From positions 1-46,540 of the forward strand of contig NZHP01000019.1 of the NCBI GenBank assembly GCA_002691465.1: a DNA stretch of 46,540 bases, read 5' to 3'. Below are positions 8,712-44,578 of this stretch, one piece after another. The notes beneath the pieces were generated by a model that was not told where the DNA came from, searched no databases, and worked only from the letters and a program-made list of their open reading frames with translations. The position numbers were made by a program, and so were the translations under genes. Within the stretch, counting starts at the first letter, position 1. Each line of letters opens with the position of its first letter. Source of the DNA: Gammaproteobacteria bacterium (GTDB lineage Bacteria > Pseudomonadota > Gammaproteobacteria > Steroidobacterales > UBA11654).

Positions 8712-8732
8712 TACAGAAGCTCAATAATTTAA

Positions 8733-11077: not shown

Positions 11078-11120
11078 ATTTAGGATTGTCTTAGGCGCAT
11101 GAAAAGGCTATAAAAGACTG

Positions 11121-19264: not shown

Positions 19265-19299
19265 TTTCAAAATCCTTATTAATGTTAGAAATTAGAATC

Positions 19300-29896: not shown

Positions 29897-31069
29897 ATGT
29901 CCAAGTTAAATATCGCAATCATCGGAGCTGGAATTGGAGGCATGAGTGCTGCACTAGGCCTCTCTCAAAGTGGCTTCAAAGTAAGTGTATTTGAGCAAGC
30001 ACCCGAATTATCTGAAGTTGGCGCAGGTTTGACAATTACTCCCAATGCCACAAAAGGTTTAAATTACTTGAATCTTGGTGAAGGCATCAAGTCTGTTGGA
30101 ATGGCTCATACCAACCAAGGTGTCAGACATTATGAAACTGGCGAGGTAATAGTGCCATTGGAAAGGGGCGAGAAGATGATGCAAAAATATGGCGCATATC
30201 AGTTTCAGGCTCATCGTGCCGATGTACACAATTTATTTATTGACGCCATGAATGCTTATCCAAACAGTCAAGTGTATGTAAATCACAAACTTACGGGGCT
30301 TGTTGAAAAAAATGGGCTTGTTGAGCTCACATTTAATGACAAGGATAAATATGAATTCGATTTTGTCATCGGAGCAGATGGAAACCGGTCAACAGTTAGA
30401 AGTATTATCATCGGAGACGATGATCCGGAATTTGCTGGATACGTTGCTTGGCGTGGGCTTGTTCCTACGGGACAGCTTTCAGAAGAAGATTTTGACGAAT
30501 GCGGTTCTTCTGCATTTATTGCACCAGGAAGAGTATTTGCAAGATATCTCGTCAGAAATGGTGAACTTTATAATTACGCAGCATTTCTCGTAACCGATGA
30601 ATGGGCTGAGGAAGGATGGGCAATCCCATCTGATATTGAAGTCGTGACTGATATTTTTTCTGACTATAACAATCAGGTAAAAAATATTATTGCTGCCACT
30701 CCTAGGGATGAGTTATTTAAATGGGGTATTTTTGCCAGAGCTCCAGCGGATAATTGGTCATCAGAGTTTTCAACTCTCCTAGGAGACGCCGCACATCCCC
30801 TTGAACCATTCATGGGACAAGGTGCCAGTATGGCTATCGAGGATGGTGTAGTTATATCAAGAATAATTGCGGATTCAGGGAGTCAAAATGAGATAGTTGA
30901 TCGTTACCAAAAAGCCAGAATAGAAAGAGCTCACTTTGTCACTGAAAATTCAAAAAAAGCAGGTATGCGCTTTACTGGAAAGACGCCAGATGATTACTCT
31001 AAAGAGGATCACAAGAACGAAGAAGAGCTGGGGTTGTTTTACTATGACCCGAGCACTGTTGAAATCTGA
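29897..31069 (+). CDS. FAD-dependent monooxygenase (salicylate / 3-hydroxybenzoate hydroxylase-like)
   Basis: 390 aa from the ATG at 29897, which has AGAAGGAA ~10 bases upstream; the frame stays open for 57 more codons but that extension lacks the family fold. The N-terminal dinucleotide-binding motif is GAGIGGMSAALGL (G10-x-G12-x-x-G15), followed by Glu in VFEQAP. The second FAD motif GADGNRSTVR and the third, LLGDAAHPLEPFMGQGASMA, are those of single-component aromatic hydroxylases. It would insert one oxygen atom next to a phenolic or heteroaromatic carboxylate using NAD(P)H. The substrate is unknown. It lies 100 bp before the Rieske oxygenase gene, which has its own promoter. Confidence 0.88.
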   Translation: MSKLNIAIIGAGIGGMSAALGLSQSGFKVSVFEQAPELSEVGAGLTITPNATKGLNYLNLGEGIKSVGMAHTNQGVRHYETGEVIVPLERGEKMMQKYGAYQFQAHRADVHNLFIDAMNAYPNSQVYVNHKLTGLVEKNGLVELTFNDKDKYEFDFVIGADGNRSTVRSIIIGDDDPEFAGYVAWRGLVPTGQLSEEDFDECGSSAFIAPGRVFARYLVRNGELYNYAAFLVTDEWAEEGWAIPSDIEVVTDIFSDYNNQVKNIIAATPRDELFKWGIFARAPADNWSSEFSTLLGDAAHPLEPFMGQGASMAIEDGVVISRIIADSGSQNEIVDRYQKARIERAHFVTENSKKAGMRFTGKTPDDYSKEDHKNEEELGLFYYDPSTVEI

Positions 31070-31097
31070 TCAAAATTGAAATAAATAGTCCGATACA

Positions 31098-31112
31098 GTT
31101 ACACTTCGTTAC
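31098..31112 (+). repeat. Tandem GTTAC motif upstream of the Rieske oxygenase gene (copy 1)
   Basis: GTTACACTTCGTTAC contains two GTTAC half-sites whose starts are 10 bp apart. A matching element, GTTACATTTAGTTAC, occurs upstream of the MFS gene at 34784. Ten bases further on is the -35 of a good promoter. The sequence also reads TTACAAAGTAA at its right end, a small inverted repeat. Probably an activator or repressor site shared by the two genes. Confidence 0.5.
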
Positions 31113-31121
31113 AAAGTAATT

Positions 31122-31150
31122 TTCTTGGCAAGAATGTAAATACATATAAT
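31122..31150 (+). promoter_or_regulatory. Sigma70 promoter of the Rieske oxygenase gene
   Basis: TTCTTG (31122-31127), a 17-bp spacer and a perfect TATAAT (31145-31150) lie 19 bp before the ATG. The predicted leader is only ~13 nt and includes AAAGGA. The weak -35 together with the upstream GTTAC pair suggests an activated promoter. Confidence 0.6.
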
Positions 31151-31169
31151 CTTTCTAAAGGAAAAGAAT

Positions 31170-32291
31170 ATGTATATTAATTTTTGGTATCCGGTCTGTC
31201 TCAGCGATGAAATCAATGAAGGACCCAAAAGAGCAACCATACTTGGTTTAGACTTTGTTGCATTCAGAGATCACAAAGGGATTGCGCATTGCCTAAGTAA
31301 TGTTTGTGTACATAGAGGAGGTTCATTGGCTCATGGCATTTGTCATGACGACGGAACCATAGCGTGCCCATATCATGGTTGGAGATTCGATGGGTCAGGA
31401 AAATGTCAAAAAATACCTTCGCTTGGTCCAGGAAGCAAAGTACCAAAAAGAGCAAAAGTAGATAGTTATCCAGTTCAAGAAAAATACGGCATTGTTTTTG
31501 CTTTTCTAGGAGATCAGCCTGAGAAAGAAAGGCCTGAGTTGTATGAAATTGAGGAGTTTGAAGCAGAAGGTTGGCGGTCAAACGATCCAAAAATTATTGA
31601 TGTTGAATATAATTATGAACGATCAATTGAAAATGGTTTAGATCCCGCACACAACGAATTCGTTCATCCTACTCACGGTTTCTCGGGTGCCAAAAATGAT
31701 TACAAAGTTAATCCAACAAAAATTACAAAAGTAGATAGAGGTGCAGATTTTGAGCAGCTGTTTGATGCTGCCCCACCACTAGATGAAGAAACATATGGTA
31801 AAACTGCTAGAAAAAGTGAAGGAGAATTGACGGTCTGGGGAGGCTACAGAGGACCCAATACACTAATCACACTGATTCATACAAAAAAAGAAACAAATTG
31901 GTTTCATCAGTATTTCTTCGAACAACCAGTCAATGAGTTTAAAACAAGAATCTTCTTCATAAGTATGCGGAACTGGCTACTTGAAGAAAATATGGATGAC
32001 ATGATCATGGAAAGAAATATGGCAGTTGCTAATCAAGACATTGCCCTCTTAAATGAATTAAAACCCTCCATAACACCGCCCACACTCACAAAGGAAATCT
32101 TTGTGCCCGCAGATTTGATCATTGGTGAATACAGAAGCTCTTTGGAAGAATTCACTAAAAAAGGCTTTAAAATTGATGTGAAAAAAATGAAAGATACCCA
32201 ACATCAAACTGCTTACGCAATTCCATCTCCTGCTAGGAGAAAAGAAAAAAGCTGGGTTTTAGACTCGGTACCTCTGGTAAGCTCAAAGTAA
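31170..32291 (+). CDS. Rieske non-heme iron oxygenase, oxygenase component
   Basis: 373 aa. The Rieske [2Fe-2S] ligands are Cys46-x-His48 (CVHRGG) and Cys66-x-x-His69 (CPYHGW), 18 residues apart. The mononuclear iron site follows in ENGLDPAHNEFVHPTH, with His161 and His166. Size and lack of a beta subunit suggest a monooxygenase or demethylase of the phthalate-dioxygenase/vanillate-demethylase/pheophorbide-a-oxygenase kind. It needs electrons from a reductase, but no ferredoxin or reductase gene is adjacent. The substrate is unknown. Its stop TAA directly abuts the stop of the convergent SDR gene. Confidence 0.9.
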   Translation: MYINFWYPVCLSDEINEGPKRATILGLDFVAFRDHKGIAHCLSNVCVHRGGSLAHGICHDDGTIACPYHGWRFDGSGKCQKIPSLGPGSKVPKRAKVDSYPVQEKYGIVFAFLGDQPEKERPELYEIEEFEAEGWRSNDPKIIDVEYNYERSIENGLDPAHNEFVHPTHGFSGAKNDYKVNPTKITKVDRGADFEQLFDAAPPLDEETYGKTARKSEGELTVWGGYRGPNTLITLIHTKKETNWFHQYFFEQPVNEFKTRIFFISMRNWLLEENMDDMIMERNMAVANQDIALLNELKPSITPPTLTKEIFVPADLIIGEYRSSLEEFTKKGFKIDVKKMKDTQHQTAYAIPSPARRKEKSWVLDSVPLVSSK

Positions 32292-33044
32292 TTATTGGGC
32301 TGATAAGCCGCCATCAATCACCAGCTCTGATCCGGTGATCATTTTTGATTCATCACTTGCAAGAAATAAGATTGAGTTTGCTACATCTTCAACAGTCACT
32401 AATTTTCTGACAGGAATTTGTCTTTCTATTTTAGATACAAGCTCCTCATTTGGATTTTCAAAAAATGATTTCATCATCTCAGTTTGAGCAAAAACTGGAT
32501 GCACGCTATTACACCTGACTAGATCAGTGCTTCTCGCACAATGAAGCGCCACGGACTTGGTTAAGTGTCTCACTGCAGCTTTTGCACTGTTGTAGGCTGC
32601 AAAATTATGTCCAGCAACAATCCCAGAAATAGATGAAATATTGATGATTGAACCATTACCAGACTCTCTCATGAGTGGAATGGCATATTTGCATCCAAGA
32701 AATACTGAATCGAGATCAACTTTGTGAACCAACTCCCATTCTTCCTCTGTGGTTGCTTCTACATCAGCCATAAAACCAATGCCAGCATTATTAACAAGCA
32801 CATTTAATCCCGAAGATTTAGCTTTTATTTCATCAATGATAGTTATCCAGTCTTCTGTCTTTGTTACGTCATGGGAAATGAAATTTACGCCTAACTCTTT
32901 AGAGGCTTTTTTGCCATTTTGCACATTGATATCTGAAATATAAACCTCAGCCCCTTCTCTCTTAAATAACTCTGCTGTAGCTTTTCCGAAGCCAGAAGCT
33001 CCTCCAGTCACTAATGCTACTTTTTTACTTAACCTTTTAGTCAT
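32292..33044 (-). CDS. Short-chain dehydrogenase/reductase
   Basis: 250 aa, classical SDR. Cofactor motif TGGASGFG at residues 13-20, Asp38 after strand 2 (favouring NAD+ over NADP+), NNAG at 85-88, and catalytic Ser138, Tyr151 and Lys155 (Y-N-S-A-K). The C terminus VEDVANSILFLASDESKMIT and GSELVIDGG is typical of alcohol dehydrogenases such as cyclopentanol or cyclohexanol dehydrogenase. It probably oxidises a secondary alcohol in the pathway encoded around it, but the substrate is not known. It is divergent from the tandem hydrolase gene (78 bp) and convergent with the Rieske gene. Confidence 0.9.
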   Translation of the reverse strand: MTKRLSKKVALVTGGASGFGKATAELFKREGAEVYISDINVQNGKKASKELGVNFISHDVTKTEDWITIIDEIKAKSSGLNVLVNNAGIGFMADVEATTEEEWELVHKVDLDSVFLGCKYAIPLMRESGNGSIINISSISGIVAGHNFAAYNSAKAAVRHLTKSVALHCARSTDLVRCNSVHPVFAQTEMMKSFFENPNEELVSKIERQIPVRKLVTVEDVANSILFLASDESKMITGSELVIDGGLSAQ

Positions 33045-33057
33045 AATGAAAATAATA

Positions 33058-33086
33058 TTTTGTTAAAATTGAAGCCATATTATAAC
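33058..33086 (+). promoter_or_regulatory. Candidate promoter of the tandem hydrolase gene
   Basis: TTTTGT, a 17-bp spacer and TATAAC (33081-33086) lie 36 bp before the hydrolase ATG in the SDR/hydrolase divergent gap. The -10 is good and the -35 weak. No GTTAC pair is present in this gap. Confidence 0.3.
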
Positions 33087-33122
33087 TTCCTAAATAGAAA
33101 ATACTGAAGATTACCTGAGCAG

Positions 33123-34778
33123 ATGAACAACAAAATCAAAACAAAATTTCAGACCATTGGAGGAAAATTTGGTGAGAGACAGGTTCGATATTTAACTTCA
33201 GGATCTGGTCCGGTTATATTTTTGTTGCATCAATCACCGAAATCCGCTGATGAATACAAACCTTTGATGAAGTTGTGGTCAAATGACTTTTGCATGATTG
33301 CTCCTGATACGCCTGGTTTTGGATCTTCGGATCCATTAGAAAGTGAAAAAGTCACCATAGAGGAGATAGCTGAAGCAACGATTGAGTTAGCTGATGCATT
33401 GGGCATTGATCGATTTGGTCTCTATGGTTTTCATACCGGCGCAATCATATCAATTGCTCTGGCACACAAATTTTCAAATAGGATTGAAGCCGTATCATGC
33501 AATGGAGTTTTAGTTCTGACTGATGATGAACTTGAAAAAATAAGGGCAGAATACTTACCTCCATTCGAACCTAGATGGGATGGCGGTCATTTAAGTTGGT
33601 TATGGTCAAGAATGAGAGAACAATTGGTTTTCTTTCCATGGCATGAAAGGACAAAGGTTGCCAGAATGAAATTCAGTATTTCTGACCCATTGATACTGCA
33701 TGAGAATGCGGTTGATGTAATGCGAGCTGGAGATAATTATAGATCTGCGTATGGAGCCGCATTTGAATATCGTCTTGAAAATTTTGTGCCTGAATTAAAG
33801 GTTCCGGCCTTGATTACTGCTGGAGAATGGGATCCTTTGTGTAAATGCCTAGAAGATTTGACTCCGTCAAGATCTACTGTAATTGAATCATCCAAAGACC
33901 AAGATCAAGCCCTAGAAAAATCAAGAGCACATCTTCTTAAGCATTCAAAAAACAAATCAATTGTTTTCCCTGAGTGTGCAATGAAAAATAATGGCTTGAC
34001 TAGATCAGTTATTGAAACTTCTGTTGGTGATATCTGTATACAGAAAAATTTTGATCAAACAGATGAGAATCCATTGGTAATTATTCCACCAATTGGTGGG
34101 TCTTCAAAAACCATAAAATATTTATCAAATGGACTTTCAAAAGAACAAAAATTGATAGTGATTGATCTTCCAGGACACGGCGAATCGGTAAAAGATATAA
34201 AAGAACCTATCCTGGATTGTTTCAATCAAGCTGTCTCAGATGTAATCGATGATCAACGCATAAAATATTTTACTCTTGCAATCATCAATCATCCCGGAAG
34301 CCTTTCTCAGCTTATCAATGAAAAAAATGCTCGTATAAATCATCTTATTCTTATCGAACCATGGTTTGTGGATAGAATGTTCATTGAAGAATACATAGAA
34401 AAAGGATTGCCTGATATTAAGAAAGAATGGCATGGAGGACATTTAAATCAATACTGGTATATGGTCAGAGACTCAAAACTTTTTTGGCCTTGGTATAACA
34501 CAGTTATTGATGGAATAATGGATCTAAAACCTCAACTGGATGAAACACAGCTTCAAGATGAGGTGACAGAATTGATCCGATCTGAATCGAACTGGATATC
34601 TGCAATGATCGGTTCGCTAAATGCTTCTGTCAACATTGAAATTGATGTCAAAACAACCGTTTGTTACAGGGAAAATCATCCACTGTCACAATTGCCACAT
34701 AAAAAGAATAATTTTTCTAAGCTGCAGCTGGATGATGAAATCAGAAACTGGTCTGAGAATCTTAAAACCATTCTTTAG
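33123..34778 (+). CDS. Tandem alpha/beta-hydrolase (two related domains, second degenerate)
   Basis: 551 aa. Domain 1 (residues ~15-245) has FLLHQSPKSADEY as oxyanion strand, APDTPGFGSSD, an elbow G102-F-H-T-G106 and GEWDP with candidate acid Asp237. Domain 2 (~315-551) has IIPPIGGSSK, VIDLPGHGES and an elbow-like N389-H-P-G. The lids align: RWDGGHLSWLWSRMREQLVF in domain 1 against EWHGGHLNQYWYMVRDSKLF in domain 2, so this is an internal duplication. The canonical G-x-S-x-G serine is His in domain 1, which suits a non-standard hydrolase or C-C lyase; domain 2 may be structural. A single-domain relative lies at 36165. The substrate is unknown. Confidence 0.82.
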   Translation: MNNKIKTKFQTIGGKFGERQVRYLTSGSGPVIFLLHQSPKSADEYKPLMKLWSNDFCMIAPDTPGFGSSDPLESEKVTIEEIAEATIELADALGIDRFGLYGFHTGAIISIALAHKFSNRIEAVSCNGVLVLTDDELEKIRAEYLPPFEPRWDGGHLSWLWSRMREQLVFFPWHERTKVARMKFSISDPLILHENAVDVMRAGDNYRSAYGAAFEYRLENFVPELKVPALITAGEWDPLCKCLEDLTPSRSTVIESSKDQDQALEKSRAHLLKHSKNKSIVFPECAMKNNGLTRSVIETSVGDICIQKNFDQTDENPLVIIPPIGGSSKTIKYLSNGLSKEQKLIVIDLPGHGESVKDIKEPILDCFNQAVSDVIDDQRIKYFTLAIINHPGSLSQLINEKNARINHLILIEPWFVDRMFIEEYIEKGLPDIKKEWHGGHLNQYWYMVRDSKLFWPWYNTVIDGIMDLKPQLDETQLQDEVTELIRSESNWISAMIGSLNASVNIEIDVKTTVCYRENHPLSQLPHKKNNFSKLQLDDEIRNWSENLKTIL

Positions 34779-34783
34779 CTAAG

Positions 34784-34798
34784 GTTACATTTAGTTAC
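34784..34798 (+). repeat. Tandem GTTAC motif upstream of the MFS transporter gene (copy 2)
   Basis: GTTACATTTAGTTAC differs from the copy at 31098 only at positions 7 and 10, both in the spacer. The half-sites are again exactly 10 bp apart. It sits 5 bp after the tandem hydrolase stop and 56 bp before the transporter ATG; a TAAAAT at 34820-34825 could be the -10. Probably the same regulator binds both copies. Confidence 0.5.
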
Positions 34799-34854
34799 TC
34801 TTTATAAAGGATTATTTTGTAAAATTTTTTGATGTTTAGAATCATAGAAATCAA

Positions 34855-36168
34855 ATGACAGAGAAAATAGGTCCAATCTTTCTCGCCAAAGGGATAAGCA
34901 AAACAAACGCTTTAACTTACTTCTATGCATGCTTTATTTGCATAGGTATTTTGGCAGGAATGAATTTTGTACAAGGCTATATTTTGACTGTAGTTCTTGA
35001 TATACCGATGAATGGTCAAGGAACAGTTACTGGTAATCTGGCATTTCTTCAAGAAATCATAGCCATCCTCTTAATAGGTCCCTTTGGTATCTTATGTGAT
35101 CGAATAGGGAGAAAGCCTGTCTTTGTGATTGGCACCCTATTGATCTCTGTGGGCCTTGCGATTTATCCATATGCAACAAACCTGACTGAACTATTTATCT
35201 TTAGATCAATATTTGCAATTGGAGCCGCATGCCTATCGTGTGTTCTTGCAATTGTGGTTGGCGATTACCCTGCAGAACAATCTAGAGGTAAGTTTGTGAG
35301 TGTTCATTCTATTCTGAATGCCTTTGGCGTCTTAGGCTTTGCGATTGTACTCGGAAGACTTCCTTCAATTTTAGAGAGCAATGGTTATGCCGCAATTGAT
35401 GCAGCTAAAATTACCATGTTAGTTGCTGCGATCATAGGATTAATATCAGCTTTTATCTTTTACAAAGGTCTGAAAGGTGGCGTTCCAGAAGATGCTGAAG
35501 AGAATAGAGAATCGAAACCTGGAACTAAGGAGTTAATTTCAGTGGGTCTTAAGTCCATAGTAAACCCTAAGATAGCCTTAGCATATGCTGCAACATTTCT
35601 TGCTCGAGCTGATGTATCAATTAATGGTCTATTTATATCTCAATGGGCTATTACCAGTGGATACGCAATGGGTCTCACTCCATCCGAGTCTATAGGTAAA
35701 GTTGTTCCTGTAATTGTGGCAACAAATCTGATTAGTATGTTTTGGGCTTATTTGTTTGGTGTGATAATCGATCGCATTGATAGAGTCATTGCTATGGTCA
35801 TAGCCATGGGTATGGGTCTTGTTGCATATGGTTTGGTTTTCTTTGTAGACTCTCCATTGAATTATGCAAATCTTCCAATATTCATTTTAATCTCTTGTAG
35901 CGCCATCGGGACTGTAATAGCAACGGCAAGTCTAATCGGTCAAGAAGCTCCGCTTAGACAACGAGGAACTGTGATTGGCTTCAGCTCATTCTTTGGAGCA
36001 ATTGGCATCTTGGTAGCAACATCTGTTGGAGGTCGTTTATTTGATTTATCTCCAAATGGTCCATTCCTTTTGATAGCGAGCATCAATGGATTTCTATTTA
36101 TTGCATCAATTATTATTTCTATAAAATCATCCAATGGGATGTCTGAGAAGAGAAACCTTTCTGAATGA
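34855..36168 (+). CDS. Major facilitator superfamily transporter
   Basis: 437 aa with about 12 hydrophobic segments. The loop between helices 2 and 3, GILCDRIGRKPVFVIG, is the MFS motif A (G-x-x-x-D-R-x-G-R-K/R). A second, weaker copy (FGVIIDRIDRVIA) is between helices 8 and 9. It probably imports the pathway substrate or exports a product; the direction is not visible. The stop overlaps the ATG of the following hydrolase (ATGA), so the two are translationally coupled. The GTTAC-repeat element upstream suggests co-regulation with the Rieske oxygenase. Confidence 0.9.
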   Translation: MTEKIGPIFLAKGISKTNALTYFYACFICIGILAGMNFVQGYILTVVLDIPMNGQGTVTGNLAFLQEIIAILLIGPFGILCDRIGRKPVFVIGTLLISVGLAIYPYATNLTELFIFRSIFAIGAACLSCVLAIVVGDYPAEQSRGKFVSVHSILNAFGVLGFAIVLGRLPSILESNGYAAIDAAKITMLVAAIIGLISAFIFYKGLKGGVPEDAEENRESKPGTKELISVGLKSIVNPKIALAYAATFLARADVSINGLFISQWAITSGYAMGLTPSESIGKVVPVIVATNLISMFWAYLFGVIIDRIDRVIAMVIAMGMGLVAYGLVFFVDSPLNYANLPIFILISCSAIGTVIATASLIGQEAPLRQRGTVIGFSSFFGAIGILVATSVGGRLFDLSPNGPFLLIASINGFLFIASIIISIKSSNGMSEKRNLSE

Positions 36169-36947
36169 TTAGAAAAGCATATACAGAGACTTCAATGGGT
36201 CAATGCCATTATAGATATAAGAGTGGTAATGGAATTCCAATGGTTTTTCTTCATCAAACACCAAGCTCTTCATTGATGTACGAAGAGCTCATATCAAAAT
36301 TACCCGAAAATCCATGCATTGCAATTGATACTCCAGGATTTGGAATGAGTGATGATATTTCCGGAAATCCAAGCATTGAAGATTATGGAAAGTATGTTTT
36401 AGAGGTCTTAGGGAATCTAGAAATAAGAAAATTTCACTTAATAGGTCACCATTCTGGCGCCTCAATAGCATTGAGTGTTGAAAATCAACGCAGTGATCTG
36501 GTTGCTTCACTTACACTGATTGGTGTTTTTCTAGCAACATCAGAAGAAAAAGAAATTATGAAAAAACAAACAGGTTTAGATTGGTCACCTAAGGAAGACG
36601 GAGGGCATCTCATTAATGCATGGAATTTAGCAGGAATAATTTTAGGCGCAGGTGATAATCTAGATCTGAGACAACGTGAAACAATTGATGCGATACGTGC
36701 AGAAACCTCTGCCAAGCAAATGCATCATGCAATCTGGGATTTTTCAGAGATTAATGCTTTTAAAAAAACAAATAAACCAAGTTTGGTCATGTGTTCTGAA
36801 GACGATGTAATGTTCCCTTTCTTAGATAAAGTAATAGACTGTAGGCCTGAAGCAACTATTCAGATAATCCAAGGCAAGAACCTTGAGCCAGACTTAGATG
36901 CTGAAAACATTGCTCTGCATCTAATGGAGTTTTATAGGAAAATCTAG
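36165..36947 (+). CDS. Alpha/beta hydrolase with G-x-H-x-G elbow
   Basis: 260 aa, single domain. VFLHQTPSSSLMYEEL matches the oxyanion strand of the tandem hydrolase at 33123, DTPGFGMSDD follows, and the elbow is G94-H-H96-S97-G98, with His rather than Ser at the usual nucleophile position. EDGGHLINAW at residues 144-153 is the lid motif shared with both domains of the tandem protein, which makes them paralogues. Candidate acid residues are Asp213 and Asp214 in SEDDVMF. The final His is not obvious. It overlaps the MFS gene by 4 bp and is 1 bp from the cytochrome b561 gene. Confidence 0.85.
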   Translation: MIRKAYTETSMGQCHYRYKSGNGIPMVFLHQTPSSSLMYEELISKLPENPCIAIDTPGFGMSDDISGNPSIEDYGKYVLEVLGNLEIRKFHLIGHHSGASIALSVENQRSDLVASLTLIGVFLATSEEKEIMKKQTGLDWSPKEDGGHLINAWNLAGIILGAGDNLDLRQRETIDAIRAETSAKQMHHAIWDFSEINAFKKTNKPSLVMCSEDDVMFPFLDKVIDCRPEATIQIIQGKNLEPDLDAENIALHLMEFYRKI

Positions 36948-36948
36948 C

Positions 36949-37458
36949 ATGGAAAATCAAGTCGCAAAAAAAGCTGGAATAATACTAAGTTGGTTGGGGT
37001 TCTTATTATTCATTATAATCTTTATAAATATGCTTCAAGCACCAAGAATTACCATTGGCACTGAAGAAAGGGAAATAATGAGAAATTTTCATCTGGTTGC
37101 TGGCACATTTTTAATGGCAGTGAGTATGTTTAGGGTGTATCTATGGGTCCATTTTCCGCCACAAAAGAATCAGCGCTTACTACCTGAACAAGAGTATATA
37201 TTTATCCACTTCTTGCAATTTAGCCTTTACTGCTCCTTTGTTGCTCAAGGTATAAGCGGTTTTTTGATGGCGTGGTCAGATGGTGTCTTGAGATTCATGA
37301 AGGACATAGACACAATTGATCATGGACTTTGGACTACTTCGGGTTATTTGCATAGCGCATTTGGATTTTTTTATATCATGCTAATCCTGATAATCATAAT
37401 CTTAAGGCTATATCACATGCTTAGATATCGTGTCTTTAGTGTGAATATTTTTGCTTAA
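36949..37458 (+). CDS. Cytochrome b561-like membrane protein
   Basis: 169 aa with four membrane helices (near residues 9-28, 46-67, 87-110 and 132-155). Histidines suited to bis-His heme coordination lie within or beside helices: NFHLVAG, HFLQF, GYLHSAFGF and RLYHML. This is the pattern of the bacterial cytochrome b561/YodB family, which passes electrons between quinol or soluble donors and periplasmic acceptors. It is followed at once by a c-type cytochrome gene, so the two probably form a membrane redox relay. One base separates it from the hydrolase gene upstream. Confidence 0.8.
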   Translation: MENQVAKKAGIILSWLGFLLFIIIFINMLQAPRITIGTEEREIMRNFHLVAGTFLMAVSMFRVYLWVHFPPQKNQRLLPEQEYIFIHFLQFSLYCSFVAQGISGFLMAWSDGVLRFMKDIDTIDHGLWTTSGYLHSAFGFFYIMLILIIIILRLYHMLRYRVFSVNIFA

Positions 37459-37459
37459 T

Positions 37460-38017
37460 ATGAGGAAGCACCTAAATAATACTAGAGGCTTACATTGGTT
37501 GTTTATGGCAATGCTAATTGGTATCGCTTTTTATCTCCCATTTCTTATCTTTGGAGCCTTTCCATACAACACAAAAACAAATACAAATCCTAATGAATTA
37601 AGTCAACTTACTGAGGATATTGATTCGATTGATTTTTATGCCATGAATGAGTTCTTACCTTCATCTCCAGAAGAGATACAAAAAGAAATCGATGCTTTTG
37701 AATCCTGGGAAGGAGGGAAATGTCGTTTTTGCCATGCAGTAAAGAGTGATGATAGAGATCGTATGGCTCCGACTCTCTATGGAATTTTTGGAAGGCCCGC
37801 TGGAGTAGAAAATAACTATACTTATTCAGATGCATTGATCAATATGAAAGACAATGGTTTAATTTGGACTCCTGAAACGCTTGATGCATTCATATCAGAT
37901 CCATCAAATTATATACCTGATAATAGGATGAGGGTTCAGGGCATTAAAGATTCAGAAACGAGAAAATTAATAGTAAATTATTTAATGAGAGAAAGTAAAC
38001 CAAACATAGGGGAGTAA
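37460..38017 (+). CDS. Membrane-anchored c-type cytochrome
   Basis: 185 aa from the ATG at 37460; a TTG nine bases earlier is in frame. One N-terminal hydrophobic helix (residues ~12-33) is probably an uncleaved anchor, placing the C-terminal domain in the periplasm. The single heme site is Cys88-R-F-Cys91-His92. Later YIPDNRMRVQGI supplies Met157 as likely axial ligand, with the class I cytochrome c pattern of Asp-Pro, Tyr-Ile-Pro and Met. It follows the cytochrome b561 gene by 1 bp and precedes DUF1838 by 6 bp. It may take electrons from a periplasmic oxidation step toward the terminal oxidase. Confidence 0.87.
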   Translation: MRKHLNNTRGLHWLFMAMLIGIAFYLPFLIFGAFPYNTKTNTNPNELSQLTEDIDSIDFYAMNEFLPSSPEEIQKEIDAFESWEGGKCRFCHAVKSDDRDRMAPTLYGIFGRPAGVENNYTYSDALINMKDNGLIWTPETLDAFISDPSNYIPDNRMRVQGIKDSETRKLIVNYLMRESKPNIGE

Positions 38018-38023
38018 CAAGAA

Positions 38024-38884
38024 ATGAAATTCGAAACTGAAATTAACTTTAAATCTAATATATGGAATCGAGATGCCTGGGCAAGAATACAAGCTGATCT
38101 AAATTCTGAAAAAGAATCAATATGCTATACGACTGGAACCATCCTAGGAGTGAGACCGGGTCAAGCAGTTAAAGAATTATGTGGTTTTGAAACTTTCTTA
38201 TGTACAAGATTAATGCCTGCTGCTGAAGATGGAAGCATTCGAAGACTAAATAAAGAAGTTATTTTCTATACGGATCCAAGATCTGGTCAAATGATTGATG
38301 AGTGGACTAATCCTTATACAGAAGAAGTGGTTGATGTTATTCATGTTGCGAATGATCCATTTAATTATACGATTTCTGAATGGCTTATTCTTGCACCTGA
38401 GGATTTTAAAACTGGTGAAAAAGCAGAGCCTAGAAAGATTCCTCTTATATTTCCTTGGAAAAGATCAGGTGATGTCATTACTCTCAGTACGGACATGCAT
38501 TTATATTATCCAAATCCATTACAGCCTGATAAGTGGGTCAGAGAATCATCAGGAAAAATGGCACGCGTCTCTGAAATGATGCGCTATTTTGTATCTGCGA
38601 AAGATCTAGAAAATCCTGAATTGACCTCTGTGAATTACACAGGAACTTGGAATAGAATCACGCCATGGCTTCCATGGATGCTTATGGGTGATACTCCTGG
38701 ACATTGTTTATATATGAGCACAATGCTTAAGTCAGATAACATTGATATCATTCCAGAACATGTTCGTGAGTTCTCTGAAGAGAGATATCCAGGCATGCTG
38801 TCGGCACCAACCGAAGACTATGGTCCAAGTATTTCTAGTCTTGAGTACTATGCTAGACAGCAATCACCAGCCCCTGTGAAGTAA
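38024..38884 (+). CDS. DUF1838 family protein
   Basis: 286 aa with no signal peptide or membrane helix. The segments YTGTWNRITPWLPWMLMGDT, PGHCLYMSTM and a C-terminal YPGMLSAPTEDYG are the conserved core of DUF1838, together with the YTDPRSGQMIDEWTNPYTEE strand. The biochemical role of DUF1838 is not established. Its position right after the b- and c-type cytochromes and among hydrolases, and its good ribosome binding site (GGGGAG, 38009-38014), suggest it is a core part of this pathway. The protein is rich in Trp, as expected of a ligand-binding beta fold, but no catalytic motif can be named. Confidence 0.82.
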   Translation: MKFETEINFKSNIWNRDAWARIQADLNSEKESICYTTGTILGVRPGQAVKELCGFETFLCTRLMPAAEDGSIRRLNKEVIFYTDPRSGQMIDEWTNPYTEEVVDVIHVANDPFNYTISEWLILAPEDFKTGEKAEPRKIPLIFPWKRSGDVITLSTDMHLYYPNPLQPDKWVRESSGKMARVSEMMRYFVSAKDLENPELTSVNYTGTWNRITPWLPWMLMGDTPGHCLYMSTMLKSDNIDIIPEHVREFSEERYPGMLSAPTEDYGPSISSLEYYARQQSPAPVK

Positions 38885-38888
38885 ATTC

Positions 38889-40229
38889 ATGAATCAGAGG
38901 TCTGTAATGGATCATAACTATCCATCAAGTAAATCAGCATGGTATGCAGTGACCATTTTGACCATTGCCTATGTTGTCTCTTTTTTGGACCGACAATTAC
39001 TGTCTTTGGTGGTCCCACTCGTAAAAAGAGACTTGCTGTTGACCGATACTCAGGTCAGCCTCTTGCTGGGTTTAGCATTTGCGCTCTTTTATACGACTAT
39101 GGGAATTCCAATTGGTAGGCTGGCTGACAAGAAAAGTCGAAGAACCATAATTGCTGTAGGAATTTCATTCTGGTGCTTGATGACTGCTGCATGTGGTTTA
39201 GCTAAAAACTACATGCAATTGTTTCTAGCAAGAGTGGGTGTGGGCGTGGGTGAAGCTACATTGAGTCCCAGCAGTTTATCTATGATTGGAGACTATTTTC
39301 CAAAAGAAAAAAGGGGGAAGGCTTTAGGTCTCTTTAATATTGGCGTTTCTGTTGGGGCAGGCATTGCATACATCATTGGCGGGCAGATCATGGCCTATGT
39401 CGCAACGAGAGATAATATTTCTCTTCCAATCATTGGGGAGATTTATCCATGGCAAGCATTATTCATAATGGTTGGGCTCCCGGGTCTTGTAGTTGCTGCG
39501 TTGATGATGACAGTAAAAGAACCTGAGAGAAGCGAGAAAATTGAATTAAAGAGCGATGAAGGCAATGTAACAGATGAAGTCTCGATCAAAGAGACAATTA
39601 ATTTCATCTGGGAAAGAAAAAGTGCCTACGGATGGCTTTTCCTTTCGATGGCTTGTTCGGTTTTAATTGGATATGCATTTCTGTCGTGGATGCCGACCAT
39701 GTATGACAGAACATATGGAATTGACTTTGGTACTATCACAATGTGGCTTGGTATTGCTTTCTTGATCTCGGGTCCAGTGGGAGCAATCGGAACAGGTTGG
39801 TTGGGAGATCATGTGTTTAAAAAATATGGTGGAAGTGCACACATAAAACTTTTTGCTTTCACAATGATCATTCTTACAATTGCTGCGGCTCTGGTCCCGC
39901 TTATGCCAACCTATCAATTGGCGACACTTATGTTTGTGCCCCAAGCAATCATGGCGGCAGGCCAAACAGCACTAGCGCCTTTGGCGATTCTCAATATCAC
40001 ACCTAACCAATTGAGAGGACAAGTAACTGCAATCTATTTTTTTGTTATAAGCATGACTGGATATACTTTAGGGCCTACGAGTGTTGCCCTTCTTACTGAT
40101 TATGTATTTAAGGATGAATCCTTGATCGCATATTCAATGGCTATAGTTTCTTTGGTTGTTGGAATAATAGGTATTTTTGCAGGATTTATGGGGGTTAAGC
40201 CATATCAAAAATACATTGAGGGAAATTAA
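38889..40229 (+). CDS. Major facilitator superfamily transporter, spinster-like
   Basis: 446 aa, about 12 membrane helices. YVVSFLDRQLLSLVVPLVKR and GIPIGRLADKKSRRTIIAVG (MFS motif A) are followed by FLARVGVGVGEATLSPSSLS and FPKEKRGKALGLFNIGVSVG, a pattern typical of spinster-like bacterial MFS proteins often found beside aromatic or terpenoid degradation genes. A second ATG at 38907 has the better Shine-Dalgarno (AGAGGT) and would shorten the protein by six residues. It probably imports the pathway substrate; the solute is unknown. It is convergent with the CoA-transferase gene, 2 bp away. Confidence 0.9.
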   Translation: MNQRSVMDHNYPSSKSAWYAVTILTIAYVVSFLDRQLLSLVVPLVKRDLLLTDTQVSLLLGLAFALFYTTMGIPIGRLADKKSRRTIIAVGISFWCLMTAACGLAKNYMQLFLARVGVGVGEATLSPSSLSMIGDYFPKEKRGKALGLFNIGVSVGAGIAYIIGGQIMAYVATRDNISLPIIGEIYPWQALFIMVGLPGLVVAALMMTVKEPERSEKIELKSDEGNVTDEVSIKETINFIWERKSAYGWLFLSMACSVLIGYAFLSWMPTMYDRTYGIDFGTITMWLGIAFLISGPVGAIGTGWLGDHVFKKYGGSAHIKLFAFTMIILTIAAALVPLMPTYQLATLMFVPQAIMAAGQTALAPLAILNITPNQLRGQVTAIYFFVISMTGYTLGPTSVALLTDYVFKDESLIAYSMAIVSLVVGIIGIFAGFMGVKPYQKYIEGN

Positions 40230-40231
40230 AC

Positions 40232-41419
40232 TTACCCGTTAGAAACCACCTCTTGATCGAATAAGTCTTTGATCTCTTTTTCGTTCAACCCAATTTCTTC
40301 GAGTATTTTATGCGTGTGCTCTCCAACACTTGGTACTGGCGTATGCACATCAAACCTTCGATCATCCATATTAATTGGCATTGCCGGAAGCTTGGTCTTT
40401 CCTCCACTGGGGATTTTAATATCCAGCAGTCCACCAGATTCATTTAGATGCGGATCATCAAATAAATCCTCGGGTTTACTAATCGGTGCAAATGGAAGAC
40501 CAGTTTTGTCTAGTTTCTTCATCAAATCACTTTTTGTAAAAGTCTTAAATAACTTCTGAAGTCGAGGAATAATCACATCTCTTTGATCTACCCTACTCTT
40601 GTTCAGGTCTAAAGATTTGTCATTTATATAATCATCCAAACCAAATGACTCGCAAAATAATTTCCACTGTGTGTCGCTCACAACGCCAATGAAAACTTGT
40701 TCTTCATCTTTTGTTTCAAAGATATCATAGACAGCCCATGCAGCCACTCTTACAGACATCGGTGGCGGAGCCGAACCCGTTGTGGCTGTCTGCGCCATAT
40801 GCTGACCCATAAGGTAGACAACATTCTCATACAATGCGCTTGTAACTTTTTGGCCTTTTTTAGTGGATTGCCTTTCTTGCAATGCAGCCAGTATAGCAAT
40901 GGCGCCAAACATACCGCCCATAATATCAATCACCGACGAGCCAGCTCTAAGAGGCCTTCCCGGTGGTCCGGTCATATAAGCAAGTCCTCCCATCATCTGT
41001 GCCACTTCATCCAATGCTGTCCTATTTTCATAAGGTCCACTCAAGAAACCCTTTGCAGAGCAATAGATTATTTCTGGATTTAGCTTTGAAAAACTCTCAT
41101 AACTAAATCCAAGCTTATCCATCGCTCCTGGTCTAAAATTTTCAATGAACACATCTGATTTTCGTATCAGGGCTTGAATTATTTTTTTACCCTCTTCTTT
41201 CTTGACATCCATGGCCAGGCTTCTTTTGTTCCTGTTATAAGTGAGAAAATAGCCTGAACCAGATTTCTTGAGCGCCCTTGTCTTATCTCCAGAAATTGGT
41301 TCAATCTTAATAACTTCTGCGCCCAAATCACCTAGTATTGCTCCAACAGCAGGTCCCATAACCATATGGGTCATTTCGATGACTTTAATTCCTGAAAGCG
41401 GTTTGTTTGAGGTACTCAT
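40232..41419 (-). CDS. Family III CoA-transferase (CaiB/BaiF type)
   Basis: 395 aa from the ATG at 41419; a TTG start six codons upstream is possible but has no ribosome binding site. The N terminus PLSGIKVIEMTHMVMGPAVG is the usual family start. Catalytic Asp137 is in TALDEVAQMMGG, preceded by ENFRPGAMDKLG. It transfers CoA between carboxylic acids through an aspartyl-CoA thioester. Here it may activate a carboxylate from the oxygenase/hydrolase steps for beta-oxidation, but donor and acceptor are unknown. It is read on the opposite strand to the transporter genes on both sides and has a 70-bp divergent gap to DUF1244. Confidence 0.9.
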   Translation of the reverse strand: MSTSNKPLSGIKVIEMTHMVMGPAVGAILGDLGAEVIKIEPISGDKTRALKKSGSGYFLTYNRNKRSLAMDVKKEEGKKIIQALIRKSDVFIENFRPGAMDKLGFSYESFSKLNPEIIYCSAKGFLSGPYENRTALDEVAQMMGGLAYMTGPPGRPLRAGSSVIDIMGGMFGAIAILAALQERQSTKKGQKVTSALYENVVYLMGQHMAQTATTGSAPPPMSVRVAAWAVYDIFETKDEEQVFIGVVSDTQWKLFCESFGLDDYINDKSLDLNKSRVDQRDVIIPRLQKLFKTFTKSDLMKKLDKTGLPFAPISKPEDLFDDPHLNESGGLLDIKIPSGGKTKLPAMPINMDDRRFDVHTPVPSVGEHTHKILEEIGLNEKEIKDLFDQEVVSNG

Positions 41420-41489
41420 ATACTCAGATAAATTCAAAGAAGATTATATTACTATTCTAATAATAATATGTTTAGATATCACACTAATT

Positions 41490-41777
41490 ATGAACAAGAA
41501 AACAGAGATCCAATCTGCCGTCTTTCAAAGACTTATTAATCACCTTCAAAAAGAATCTGATGTGCAGAATATCGATATGATGATACTCGCCGGATTTTGC
41601 AGAAACTGCTTAAGTCGCTGGTACCAAGAAGAATCCGAAAAAATGGGAGTAGAGATTGATAGCGGTGATGCAAAAGAGATTGTTTATGGCATGCCTCATT
41701 CGGAATGGAAAGAGCGTTACCAAAAACCTGCCACACAGGAGCAACTGGATCTGATGAATGCCCGAAAAGATAAGTAA
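41490..41777 (+). CDS. DUF1244 family protein
   Basis: 95 aa from the ATG at 41490. The open frame extends upstream to 41268, but that part only mirrors the CoA-transferase gene on the other strand. The core FQRLINHLQKESDVQNIDMM and LAGFCRNCLSRWY with Cys37-x-x-Cys40 is the DUF1244 signature; MPHSEWKERYQKPAT completes the fold. Family members are small cytoplasmic proteins of alpha- and gammaproteobacteria with unknown role. Its stop overlaps the start of the next MFS gene by one base, so the two are co-translated. Confidence 0.88.
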   Translation: MNKKTEIQSAVFQRLINHLQKESDVQNIDMMILAGFCRNCLSRWYQEESEKMGVEIDSGDAKEIVYGMPHSEWKERYQKPATQEQLDLMNARKDK

Positions 41778-42979
41778 TGAATAATGATCAAAAGATTGGC
41801 CTTGATAAGGCCATATTAATTACTGGTCTTGTCATATATGGCACAGGCTTTTCCCTCCTCTATGTTATTTTTGCTCCGCTATCAAGAGAGATTGGATTGA
41901 GCATCAATCAGTTTGGTGTTTTGATTGCAATATCAAATGTCGCCCTTGTTTTTTCGTCATATTACTGGGGGAGAAAGAGTCAAATAATTGGGAGAAAGAA
42001 GGTATTTGTAATTGGTTTACTCTCATATGGTTTTGCATTTCTTCTATTTACATTTGGTATTCAAGTTGGGCTTTGGGGCATACTCAGTCCCTTAACGCTG
42101 TTTATACTGCTTCTGGTCATCAGAATAATTTACGGCATTTTAATTGGAGGCATTCAACCTGCTGCAGTTGCTTACATGTCTGATAGTACTGATTCAGGCA
42201 ATCGAACTAAAGGCATGGCTCTCATCGGGATGGCTTCAGGAATCGGGACAATGATTGGGCCTGTGATGGGAGGATCGCTTTCTTTCATCCATCCTTTGTT
42301 CCCAATGTATTGCGGTGCTGTTATCGCTTTAATTGGAGCAATCTTGGCTCAAAAATATCTTATTCATTCAGTACCGGATAATCCTGAATTGAAGCAAAGC
42401 CAATCACTAAAATTCTATGATCCTAGGGTCCTTCCATTTCTTATCGGCTGGTCTGTTGCCTTTATGGTATTTACATCAGTACAAATCATTTCTGCATTCT
42501 TTATACAAGATCAGTTAGGAATATCAGATCCTGATCAAGTTATTAAATTCACTAGTATCGCACTATTATCAATGGCTTTAACTTCAACTTTTATGCAAGC
42601 TGTGGTTTTACAGGTCATTAATATTTCGACACAAACATTGTTGAGAATCTGTTTTTTAATTTTTGGAATGGTTTTGATATCAATAAGTGTTGTGGATTCA
42701 TTAACAGAATTTTTCTTAGCTTATGCAGGAATGGGCATTGCCTTCAGTATGATTACCCCGGGCCTAAATGCAGCTGCAACATTGAGTGTTAAACCTTCTG
42801 AGCAAGGAGAAGTTGCAGGATTCTTAGCCGGTGCGCCCGTTGTTGGGATGATCTTTGGTCCTACGATTGGTACATTGTTATACAATCTGGATCCAACCTT
42901 TCCATTTTATTACGGAGGACTGGGTGCAATTATTTTGGGAGTCTATTTTCAGTTTGTCAGAGTGGGTGAAGAAAACTAG
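41777..42979 (+). CDS. Major facilitator superfamily transporter, drug/H+ antiporter-like
   Basis: 400 aa, 12 predicted membrane helices. The motif-A loop is WGRKSQIIGRKKVFVIG, and helix 5 carries GMASGIGTMIGPVMGGSLSF, close to the antiporter motif C (G-x-x-x-G-P-x-x-G-G), which favours an efflux or antiport role over uptake. It may export a toxic intermediate or an unrelated compound. The start overlaps the DUF1244 stop by one base. The stop TAG directly touches the stop of the convergent PPOX gene. Confidence 0.88.
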   Translation: MNNDQKIGLDKAILITGLVIYGTGFSLLYVIFAPLSREIGLSINQFGVLIAISNVALVFSSYYWGRKSQIIGRKKVFVIGLLSYGFAFLLFTFGIQVGLWGILSPLTLFILLLVIRIIYGILIGGIQPAAVAYMSDSTDSGNRTKGMALIGMASGIGTMIGPVMGGSLSFIHPLFPMYCGAVIALIGAILAQKYLIHSVPDNPELKQSQSLKFYDPRVLPFLIGWSVAFMVFTSVQIISAFFIQDQLGISDPDQVIKFTSIALLSMALTSTFMQAVVLQVINISTQTLLRICFLIFGMVLISISVVDSLTEFFLAYAGMGIAFSMITPGLNAAATLSVKPSEQGEVAGFLAGAPVVGMIFGPTIGTLLYNLDPTFPFYYGGLGAIILGVYFQFVRVGEEN

Positions 42980-43543
42980 TTAGGTTTTTTTTGATTCAGA
43001 AAATCCATCTGAAGCTTGCTCATGTTTTTCATCTCGACGCCATATCTGCCTTGGACCGTATCCATCCTTTCTTAAAAAATGTTCTGTATAAACAATTCTA
43101 TCAGGGTCTAGTCGCATAAGTTGATACTGAGGAGGATTTTCAAATCCTGTATTTATCTCAGCAGCTGAAGCCTGCCATCTAAAAATAGTCATGCCATAAT
43201 CCCATTCAGAAGTTCCCGGTTCAAGTATCTCGGCTTTACCAAATAACTGAGCTCCCTGTGCAGTCACCCAGCCTGCCATTGGATTCGCTACTGCAAACGA
43301 CACTCTCGGGTCACGTTGCATTGCCTTGAGTTTAGGGCTTCCAGGTTGAGGCAAGACATAAATTGTAAATTTGTCAGCGTAAAATTCCAATGGGCTGACA
43401 ATAGGTCCGTTGAGCCCTAAGGTCCCAAGCATGCCAAGATTGGTTAATGTCAGAGCACGTTGAATTCTATGCTCAAGCATCTCTCTAGGCAGCTTCTTTG
43501 TTGTCCAAGGTATTTCATCTAACCACGGGTGTGCATTACTCAT
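42980..43543 (-). CDS. Pyridoxamine 5'-phosphate oxidase-like split-barrel protein (flavin or F420 binding)
   Basis: 187 aa from the ATG at 43543, which has GGGGGA just upstream; an ATG 12 bp earlier overlaps that Shine-Dalgarno. The split barrel runs from the MLGTLGLNGPIVSPLEFYAD segment through RDPRVSFAVANPMAGWVTAQ to GKAEILEPGTSEWDYG, matching PPOX-class proteins. Members bind FMN, F420 or heme; the cofactor cannot be told from sequence alone, but this genome makes F420. The tail is charged and probably disordered. It is transcribed just downstream of the tRNA-Arg gene on the same strand. Confidence 0.8.
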   Translation of the reverse strand: MSNAHPWLDEIPWTTKKLPREMLEHRIQRALTLTNLGMLGTLGLNGPIVSPLEFYADKFTIYVLPQPGSPKLKAMQRDPRVSFAVANPMAGWVTAQGAQLFGKAEILEPGTSEWDYGMTIFRWQASAAEINTGFENPPQYQLMRLDPDRIVYTEHFLRKDGYGPRQIWRRDEKHEQASDGFSESKKT

Positions 43544-43561
43544 ATTATCCCCCATTTCATA

Positions 43562-43638
43562 TGGCGCGCCCGGAGGGATTCGAACCCCCGACCACCTGGT
43601 TCGAAGCCAGGTACTCTATCCAGCTGAGCTACAGGCGC
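43562..43638 (-). tRNA. tRNA-Arg, anticodon TCG
   Basis: The 77-nt minus-strand transcript folds into a complete cloverleaf. The acceptor stem GCGCCTG pairs with CGGGCGC (one G-U), and the discriminator G precedes an encoded CCA. The D arm is GCTCAGCTGGATAGAGT. The anticodon stem CCTGG/CCAGG holds the loop CTTCGAA (anticodon TCG), and the T arm contains GGTTCGAATCC. It reads CGA and probably other CGN codons. Confidence 0.97.
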
Positions 43639-43647
43639 GTAAAAGCA

Positions 43648-44577
43648 TTATAACTCACAAATGAATGGATTAGCTTTTTTCAAGGTTCTCCAAGCATCTA
43701 TCGCTTCTGGGATGCTGACTAATTTAAATACAAAGTTGTCATTAGGTCTCAATTGACCAAGTAAATGGCGATCGGCTTTAATGACTTGCAATATTCTTGG
43801 GTAGCCACCCAAAGTTTGAGCATCAGCTCCCATGATAATTGGCTGGCCCCCATTTGAGCATTGGATTGTTCCCGGGTAAATGGGCTTACTTTTCATCAAT
43901 CCTTGATCATCTATTGAAAAACGATCACCGCCTGTCCTTATACCCATTCTATTTGACTCATTGCTCACAGAAAAATTATGTGACTCAAGCGACGAGGATC
44001 CATTATTTAGTAATTGAAACTCGGGCCCTTTTACGACCCGAATGATTGATGTTAAGAGATCATCAGGATATTTGCCTGAAGATTGATATGAAGAATTCTT
44101 TTGTCTGGCTTCTTCGAAGTCTATAATCTGATCATTTTCAATTTTGGATCCATTGATTCCTCCCAGTCTTCCAGGCAAATATGTTGAAACACTATCCAAA
44201 AATTGTGTTGCTTGGATATTTTTTGAGAACGCAATATAAAACCTTAAGTTTTCTTGTACGACATCAGCTGTAAATATATTTCCTGCTTTCAAGCTTAAAA
44301 CTTTATTTTGTTCAACTTTGACTCCGTCGATTGTAATTTGATTGATCCTTGCTCCGCTGACGCATGCCTGAATGTCTTTGAGTACTTTAAATTGTGGACC
44401 AGTCATGGTGCACTCAAGAACTGGGGAATTGATTTCTTTTCCCAAAATTTCATTTGCCTTCATCGAGGATACATAATCAAAGCAACCTGACTGAGGAATA
44501 CCAATGTGCCGACTCCCAGCTCTTCCAAGGTCCTGAACTGTGGTTTGCAATCCTGTTTTGAGAAATTGAATGGCCAT
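43648..44577 (-). CDS. pxpC: 5-oxoprolinase subunit C (biotin-dependent carboxyltransferase-like, KipA)
   Basis: 309 aa from the ATG at 44577, one base after the pxpB stop; 310 aa is the normal size. The start FLKTGLQTTVQDLGRAGSRH and IGIPQSGCFDYVSSMKANEI are family hallmarks, as is the C-terminal segment around GGDRFSIDDQG, SNGGQPIIMGADAQTLGGYP and IKADRHLLGQLRPND. PxpABC cleaves the cyclic by-product 5-oxoproline to glutamate with ATP. A longer open frame upstream (14 codons) overlaps pxpB and is not needed. It is the last gene of the operon; the tRNA-Arg follows 10 bp downstream. Confidence 0.93.
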   Translation of the reverse strand: MAIQFLKTGLQTTVQDLGRAGSRHIGIPQSGCFDYVSSMKANEILGKEINSPVLECTMTGPQFKVLKDIQACVSGARINQITIDGVKVEQNKVLSLKAGNIFTADVVQENLRFYIAFSKNIQATQFLDSVSTYLPGRLGGINGSKIENDQIIDFEEARQKNSSYQSSGKYPDDLLTSIIRVVKGPEFQLLNNGSSSLESHNFSVSNESNRMGIRTGGDRFSIDDQGLMKSKPIYPGTIQCSNGGQPIIMGADAQTLGGYPRILQVIKADRHLLGQLRPNDNFVFKLVSIPEAIDAWRTLKKANPFICEL

Positions 44578-44578
44578 C

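Follow-up and report, generated by a model that had tools for sequence, protein, structure and literature searches.

A putative catabolic locus with DUF1838 and histidine-elbow alpha/beta-fold genes, and its linkage to F420 genes, in an uncultured gammaproteobacterium

The subject of this work is a set of oxygenase, transporter, cytochrome, alpha/beta-fold and DUF1838 genes carried by a stretch of 46,540 nucleotides (contig NZHP01000019.1, assembly GCA_002691465.1; Gammaproteobacteria, Steroidobacterales, UBA11654), referred to below as the window. Its source is a metagenome-assembled genome (MAG) of 1.40 Mb and 84% completeness, and the public contigs matching the region come from uncultured marine Gammaproteobacteria, one of them labelled Woeseia sp. 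Part of the set recurs in other groups and is there, mostly in one other family, physically linked to genes of F420 metabolism. In the window the set begins on the forward strand with FMO, a FAD group A hydroxylase (29897-31069; FAD_binding_3, E 1e-21), and a Rieske non-heme iron oxygenase of the VanA_C type (31170-32291; Rieske and VanA_C domains), both upstream of a tight operon and on the same strand. They are followed by a short-chain dehydrogenase (SDR) on the opposite strand (32292-33044) and by ABHdi (33123-34778, forward; domain search, alignment and model), a protein with two alpha/beta-hydrolase-fold domains, whose gene ends 76 bp upstream of the operon. The operon comprises, on the forward strand and with gaps of -4, 1, 1, 6 and 4 bp, the transporter MFS1 (34855-36168), ABH2 with a single alpha/beta-fold domain and a GHHSG elbow (H96; 36165-36947; domain search and alignment), a cytochrome b561-type membrane protein (36949-37458; PF01292, E 6.9e-10), a cytochrome c with one CXXCH and an N-terminal membrane anchor judged by eye (37460-38017), a DUF1838 protein of a leaderless clade (38024-38884; PF08894, E 2.6e-47, 162 bits against a Pfam gathering cut-off of 25) and the transporter MFS2 (38889-40229). 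Downstream lie a family III CoA-transferase on the opposite strand (40232-41437), a DUF1244 protein (about 41490-41777, forward, the start being read from the open reading frame (ORF)), the transporter MFS3 (41777-42979, forward) and, again on the opposite strand, a PNPOx-type split-barrel protein weakly resembling the Rv1155 F420 family (42980-43555). The SDR, the three transporters, the CoA-transferase and the DUF1244 protein were assigned by domain search.

An earlier note, made from the letters of the window alone, had read these 14 kb as one degradation region. ORF and domain searches confirmed every gene family that it named, with small coordinate corrections, and pairwise comparison agrees with its statement that two genes hold three related hydrolase domains (ABHdi N-terminal domain against ABH2, 27% identity, E 1e-23; ABHdi N-terminal against C-terminal domain, E 3e-8). 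The gene list was nevertheless incomplete, as the DUF1244 gene, the PNPOx-type protein, the upstream F420 genes and a luciferase-like hydride transferase had been overlooked. The core is a tightly packed operon; the 14 kb as a whole, judged by spacing and strands, are not a single one, and promoter-like sites at the operon level showed no excess over shuffled sequence.

Conservation within the family was followed in 11 species genomes of 1.1-1.6 Mb each (drafts, 64-92% complete). The order given above, from FMO, Rieske oxygenase, SDR and ABHdi through the operon to CoA-transferase, DUF1244, MFS3 and PNPOx, is kept in 9 other species of the family at identities of 50-97%; the Rieske gene is doubled in tandem in the sister clade, and SDR or ABHdi is absent from some genomes. 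Housekeeping neighbours (FabD and the 5-oxoprolinase genes) are also held in place within the family, and family-level synteny alone is therefore weak evidence.

For linkage beyond the family, the best 79 loci of 306 DUF1838 relatives were taken from a genome collection and their genes called and clustered. Of the loci from other groups, 69 in number, 18 contain, besides DUF1838, a gene of the alpha/beta fold whose elbow reads GxHxG. At a background density of ABHdi-like matches of 1.17 per Mb, measured in 147 genomes of the order, these loci, 1.17 Mb in total, should contain about 1.4 such genes. The formal p-value of this excess is too small because the loci are related, and the excess is still large. 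The constant pair outside the family is a leaderless DUF1838 with ABHdi. One locus from a distant genome (L177, genome G024) unites much of the set within 19 kb: two Rieske oxygenases (42 and 52% identity to the window copy), CoA-transferase (63%), MFS2 (49%), DUF1838 (54%), MFS1 (37%) and ABHdi (37%). MFS2 stands immediately 3' of DUF1838 in three more loci (L060, L062, L066), and CoA-transferase copies 57-64% identical to that of the window are found near DUF1838 in L177 and three others (L105, L117, L126). DUF1244 lies near DUF1838 in 5 outside loci and follows leaderless DUF1838 in other groups, and the MFS1-type family also flanks DUF1838 paralogues of the Tat type. The PNPOx gene appeared in none of the outside-family DUF1838 loci on the first count, which is explained by sampling, since 4 loci anchored on ABHdi contained it; these copies are 63-65% identical and sit in F420/ABHdi clusters of a single genus (L172, L174, L184, L185). 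The housekeeping neighbours of the window were seen in 0 of 100 anchored loci in total. Conserved synteny, which the earlier note had named as its own test, was thus found in 9 other family genomes, 18 of 69 outside loci and L177, and its idea of undescribed catabolic genes that belong together is supported. No account of such a system was found in the literature on DUF1838, on GxHxG elbows or on Woeseia and Rieske oxygenases.

Further upstream on the forward strand the window is predicted to encode a complete F420 biosynthesis operon (8049-13502), each member exceeding the cut-off of its model. It consists of NpdG/Fno, NADPH:F420 oxidoreductase (8049-8711; TIGR01915, 159.4 bits, cut-off 149.8), CofE, F420-0:glutamate ligase (8733-9512; TIGR01916, 258.7 bits, cut-off 180.65), CofD, 2-phospho-L-lactate transferase (9509-10465; TIGR01819, 286.2 bits, cut-off 257.45), CofC, guanylyltransferase (10466-11077; TIGR03552, 122.5 bits, cut-off 105), and CofGH/FbiC, bifunctional FO synthase (11121-13502; NF006687, 1053 bits, cut-off 1018). 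An F420-dependent luciferase-like hydride transferase (LLHT) of the Rv3520c subfamily lies at 18224-19270 on the reverse strand (TIGR03559, 370.8 bits, cut-off 335). It is 51-62% identical to LLHTs adjoining DUF1838 and ABHdi in other families, and the homologues in L172 and L057 also exceed the TIGR03559 cut-off. The PNPOx-type protein stays below the model of F420-dependent PPOX/FDOR proteins (TIGR03618, 27 against 79 bits), as does its homologue (30.7 bits).

The linkage of these genes to the core is physical. A leaderless DUF1838 and an Rv3520c-type LLHT are at most 20 kb apart in 10 of the 14 other-family genomes that have both, and cofD lies 13-38 kb from DUF1838 in 7 of those genomes, including two assembled as single contigs (G037, G074). 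In L172 and L174 the following run can be read: PNPOx, MFS, a regulator-like gene, DUF1244, DUF1838 and further genes, then an outer-membrane protein, ABHdi, a chorismate-lyase-like gene, a small protein, LLHT, a second LLM and the F420 operon. Among 30 ABHdi-anchored loci, F420 genes occurred in 5-6, LLHT in 8, DUF1838 in 10 and PNPOx in 4; in 20 control loci drawn from the same genomes there were no F420 genes, LLHT, DUF1838 or ABHdi and a single PNPOx. The window itself shows 9 kb from cofD to LLHT and 20 kb from LLHT to DUF1838, a spacing shared by 5 other genomes of the family. Presence and absence of F420 genes and DUF1838 outside the family are also associated (Fisher p about 4e-10); this mostly reflects differences between families, and physical linkage is for that reason preferred as proof. 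Actinobacteria and archaea also have F420-dependent LLHT systems, in which LLHTs serve alcohol oxidation or reduction of unsaturated organic compounds (PMC8498797); the window resembles them in its complete gene set for making and recycling F420 and in an LLHT that exceeds the TIGR03559 cut-off. Here, however, the setting is gammaproteobacterial and the linked partners are DUF1838 and the alpha/beta-fold genes with a His elbow, an association for which no report was found.

The alpha/beta-fold proteins have lost their serine nucleophile. At its position stands a histidine, invariant in the alignments of both the ABHdi N-terminal domain (H104, in a GxHTG elbow) and ABH2 (H96), and in four relatives (L165-L168) an alanine (GSATG). 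The acid is kept (D237 invariant in the ABHdi N-terminal domain, D214 nearly invariant in ABH2), and no catalytic histidine after the last strand is conserved in either alignment. The N-terminal domain of ABHdi also carries a DG-HL...FPW[HY] motif, and the elbow of its C-terminal domain is degenerate, with no consistent form across the alignment. The AlphaFold2 model of ABHdi (mean pLDDT 89.8) is closest among solved folds to fluoroacetate dehalogenase, esterases and BphD (Foldseek). The fold is thus that of the BphD/HsaD C-C hydrolases and dehalogenases (E about 1e-13, TM by target 0.56-0.73), but ABHdi differs from them in its two domains and extra motif, in the replaced nucleophile and in the missing terminal histidine. 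Because of the His or Ala at the elbow and the lack of a conserved catalytic histidine, serine-type hydrolysis by ABHdi and ABH2 appears unlikely, and the C-C or ester cleavage earlier assigned to them as hydrolases did not stand. A general-base reaction using His and Asp is possible, and it is likely that the GxHxG family has been misannotated as hydrolases. In the four loci with the GSATG protein, DUF1838 stands beside DUF1330, a nitrilase, FAD_binding_4, an amine-oxidase-type flavoprotein, cytochrome c and a TonB receptor.

DUF1838 is a family with almost no literature; only one paper naming it was found, where ArtU of the aurantimycin cluster is listed with no function given (PMC5031334). 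The window protein is a clear member, but unlike most proteobacterial copies, which bear a Tat-like leader, it falls in one leaderless clade (SH-aLRT 100), and it is for this reason predicted to act in the cytoplasm. Its model (mean pLDDT 94.5) shows a beta-barrel built of long strands, in which many polar residues are conserved. The fold search of solved structures returned no close relative (best TM 0.39; the matches were LmcA, PsbO and AttH-like barrels), and the sequence gave chance matches only in the PDB; with TM below 0.4, these barrels were not used as a guide to function. Genes of the hydantoinase A/B, nitrilase, isochorismatase and deacetylase-like types that occur close to DUF1838 copies of the Tat type were considered as a clue to nitrogen-ring breakdown and set aside, none of them being present in the window.

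Neither of the two oxygenases is assigned a substrate by the models. The nearest solved relatives of FMO are decarboxylative vanillate 1-hydroxylase, 6-hydroxynicotinate 3-monooxygenase and tropone 2-monooxygenase, and its best score against substrate-specific equivalog models (3HB6H/salicylate type) was 214 of 459 bits, below the cut-off. In the Rieske oxygenase the motifs CxH..CxxH and DxxH (mononuclear iron) are intact and VanA_C is present, and no NCBIfam cut-off at substrate level was reached (best, 4beta-methylsterol monooxygenase, 97 of 600 bits). The source genome encodes five Rieske oxygenase-like proteins and a Rieske protein of 196 residues which, by its length, may be PetA-like. 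The Rieske and VanA_C domains with intact motifs are shared with VanA and the methylxanthine demethylases; what differs from VanA systems is that a VanB-type reductase was found neither in the locus nor in the family genomes. The earlier statement that the oxygenase has no reductase of its own is therefore true at the locus and extends further: no clear Fer2 plus NAD_binding_1 protein was seen in the 11 family genomes (drafts of 64-92% completeness), and the source genome (84% complete) yielded neither an NAD_binding_1 protein nor a Fer2 protein of a suitable kind. The Fer2 matches of the family are mainly a protein of about 716 residues, which is NuoG by context (beside NADH-dehydrogenase-like genes in the source genome), together with ferredoxins of about 110 residues in 3 genomes, and NAD_binding_1 matches are weak and limited to 4 genomes. 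A ferredoxin reductase of the glutathione-reductase type (PF14759) occurs in 6 of the 11 genomes, including the source genome, and is the likely partner of the Rieske oxygenase.

As to the cytochromes, a 407-residue fusion of b561 and cytochrome c lies beside Tat-type DUF1838 clusters in Niveispirillum and Azospirillum. The existence of this single protein in Azospirillaceae supports the view that b561 and cytochrome c, encoded separately in the window, form one electron carrier, comparable to the b561-cytochrome c carriers of periplasmic dehydrogenases, in which b561 likewise adjoins an anchored cytochrome c. In the fusion loci (L094, L101-L103) its neighbours are an amine-oxidase-type flavoprotein, HyuA/HyuB and a leader-bearing DUF1838, whereas the window has no such leader-bearing flavoprotein adjacent.

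Taken together, these data are best explained, with a probability of roughly 60%, if the region serves the oxidative part of a catabolic route whose substrate is an organic compound, probably hydrophobic and cyclic, and which is tied to F420 and, through b561 and cytochrome c, to an electron outlet. What the sequences show are the gene families, the conserved operon, the linkage between DUF1838, ABHdi, LLHT and the F420 operon, and the loss of the serine nucleophile. The hydrophobic and cyclic nature of the substrate is a guess based on the kinds of oxygenase present, the LLHT subfamily (Rv3520c) and the barrel folds, and the order of the steps and the reaction of each enzyme are offered as a proposal. 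The MFS transporters would import the substrate, which exchangeable oxygenases would hydroxylate (FMO and the Rieske oxygenase in this case, luciferase-like or further flavin enzymes in other groups). Hydride steps may be carried out by the NAD-dependent SDR and the F420-dependent LLHT, with F420 presumably supplied and recycled by CofGH, CofC, CofD, CofE and NpdG, all encoded in the window. The oxidised skeleton would then be acted on by cytoplasmic DUF1838 and the His-elbow proteins in a reaction that is probably something other than serine hydrolysis, such as isomerisation or lysis of a C-C bond. The CoA-transferase would activate an acid product, and electrons from an oxidation in the membrane or periplasm could reach the respiratory chain through the b561/cytochrome c pair.

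Several observations weigh against this interpretation. None of the core enzymes has a known reaction, and there is no evidence on the substrate. FMO, SDR and MFS3 were without association outside the family, and FMO and MFS3 are conserved in the family only. Two family members lack ABHdi and in two others its reading frame is broken by stop codons; the gene is consequently not indispensable. In the window, 20-29 kb holding unrelated genes separate the F420 genes from the core; the linked genomes come mostly from one family (five genera) and are not independent, and since nearly all members of that family make F420, co-occurrence within it is uninformative. One single-contig genome (G089) has its LLHT and F420 genes 190 kb from DUF1838, and many genomes with Tat-clade DUF1838 have no F420 genes. 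It could be argued that the operon is independent of F420, with LLHT serving general metabolism and the two groups of genes brought together by genome history. The intervening genes, the Tat-type clusters in genomes devoid of F420 genes and the LLHT that keeps its place beside cofD even in genomes whose DUF1838 lies at another site or is lacking (G058, G146, G089, G122) all fit such a history. Still, LLHT, F420 genes, ABHdi and DUF1838 recur together in five genera of another family in differing gene orders, for which chance would allow about 1% per genome, and this explanation is considered rather unlikely. More improbable than any other reading, and already disfavoured, is that the genes are independent of each other, have no single function and merely lie close together, the genomes being small and conserved: FabD and the 5-oxoprolinase genes are equally fixed in the family, but the same sets recur in distant genomes with other surroundings, where the housekeeping neighbours do not follow.

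Two known types of pathway were also weighed against the proposed F420-coupled oxidation. The earlier note had thought of a cyclic or terpenoid-like marine compound that possibly feeds propionyl-CoA to the pathway at 19-26 kb. Breakdown of a steroid or terpenoid skeleton, with a role of LLHT modelled on the cholesterol region of mycobacteria and propionyl-CoA drained by Mut/Pcc, is suggested by the subfamily of the window LLHT, as Rv3520c is located in the KstR/cholesterol region of M. tuberculosis (PMC1995591, PMC6429209), by the sterol monooxygenase as best match of the Rieske protein and by the Mut/Pcc genes confirmed at 19.4-26.4 kb. The LLHT subfamily, catabolic surroundings and propionyl-CoA handling genes are shared with the KstR region; no Mce-type importer and no Kst/Hsa-type steroid ring-cleavage genes were seen here, however, no proven role for Rv3520c was found in the literature, and the Rieske match is far under its cut-off. 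The Mut/Pcc genes occur in none of the 100 anchored loci, so that their nearness in the window says nothing on function. A steroid route is accordingly regarded as unlikely. Somewhat less probable again is a conventional aromatic-acid route, in which FMO and the Rieske oxygenase hydroxylate or demethylate and the alpha/beta-fold proteins hydrolyse the ring-cleavage product. It would agree with the VanA_C domain and with the closeness of FMO to decarboxylative vanillate 1-hydroxylase, 6-hydroxynicotinate 3-monooxygenase and 3-hydroxybenzoate 6-hydroxylase, but the region holds no ring-cleaving dioxygenase, both oxygenases remain below every NCBIfam cut-off at substrate level, and the alpha/beta-fold proteins are without the serine nucleophile of ring-cleavage hydrolases.

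A 2021 review counts among the unanswered questions why F420 is made by newly recognised producers, Proteobacteria among them (PMC8498797). The linkage described here hints at what some of them may use it for, and the question becomes testable, because F420 genes sit with a defined catabolic set in several genera. DUF1838 gains a functional setting, and so does an alpha/beta-fold family that lost its nucleophile. A bolder view, put forward only tentatively, is that DUF1838 and the His-elbow proteins are a new non-hydrolytic pair which cleaves or isomerises skeletons, working with F420-dependent LLHTs in a widespread, undescribed degradation pathway of marine and freshwater Proteobacteria, and that this might be a main reason for F420 there.

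Some further features may be mentioned. DUF1838 is greatly expanded in seven genomes of the order (G022, G035, G046, G050, G057, G066, G079), with 13 to 20 matches in each; they belong to a group without the F420 gene cofD. In certain marine groups the number of DUF1838 copies in a genome reaches about 20. A protein of unknown family with 120 residues and a 409-residue protein with a methyltransferase domain form a conserved pair adjoining Tat-type DUF1838 in 14 loci (L097, L099, L101-L104, L109, L116, L118, L122, L128-L131). In the window, a 771-residue DUF5916 protein that may carry a signal peptide precedes the set (26450-28765). At its other end lies a tRNA-Arg (43562-43638), followed by the 5-oxoprolinase-type genes (LamB/YcsF, CT_C_D, CT_A_B; 43648-46022), which are found near the locus in most family genomes and are strongly diverged (37-87%).

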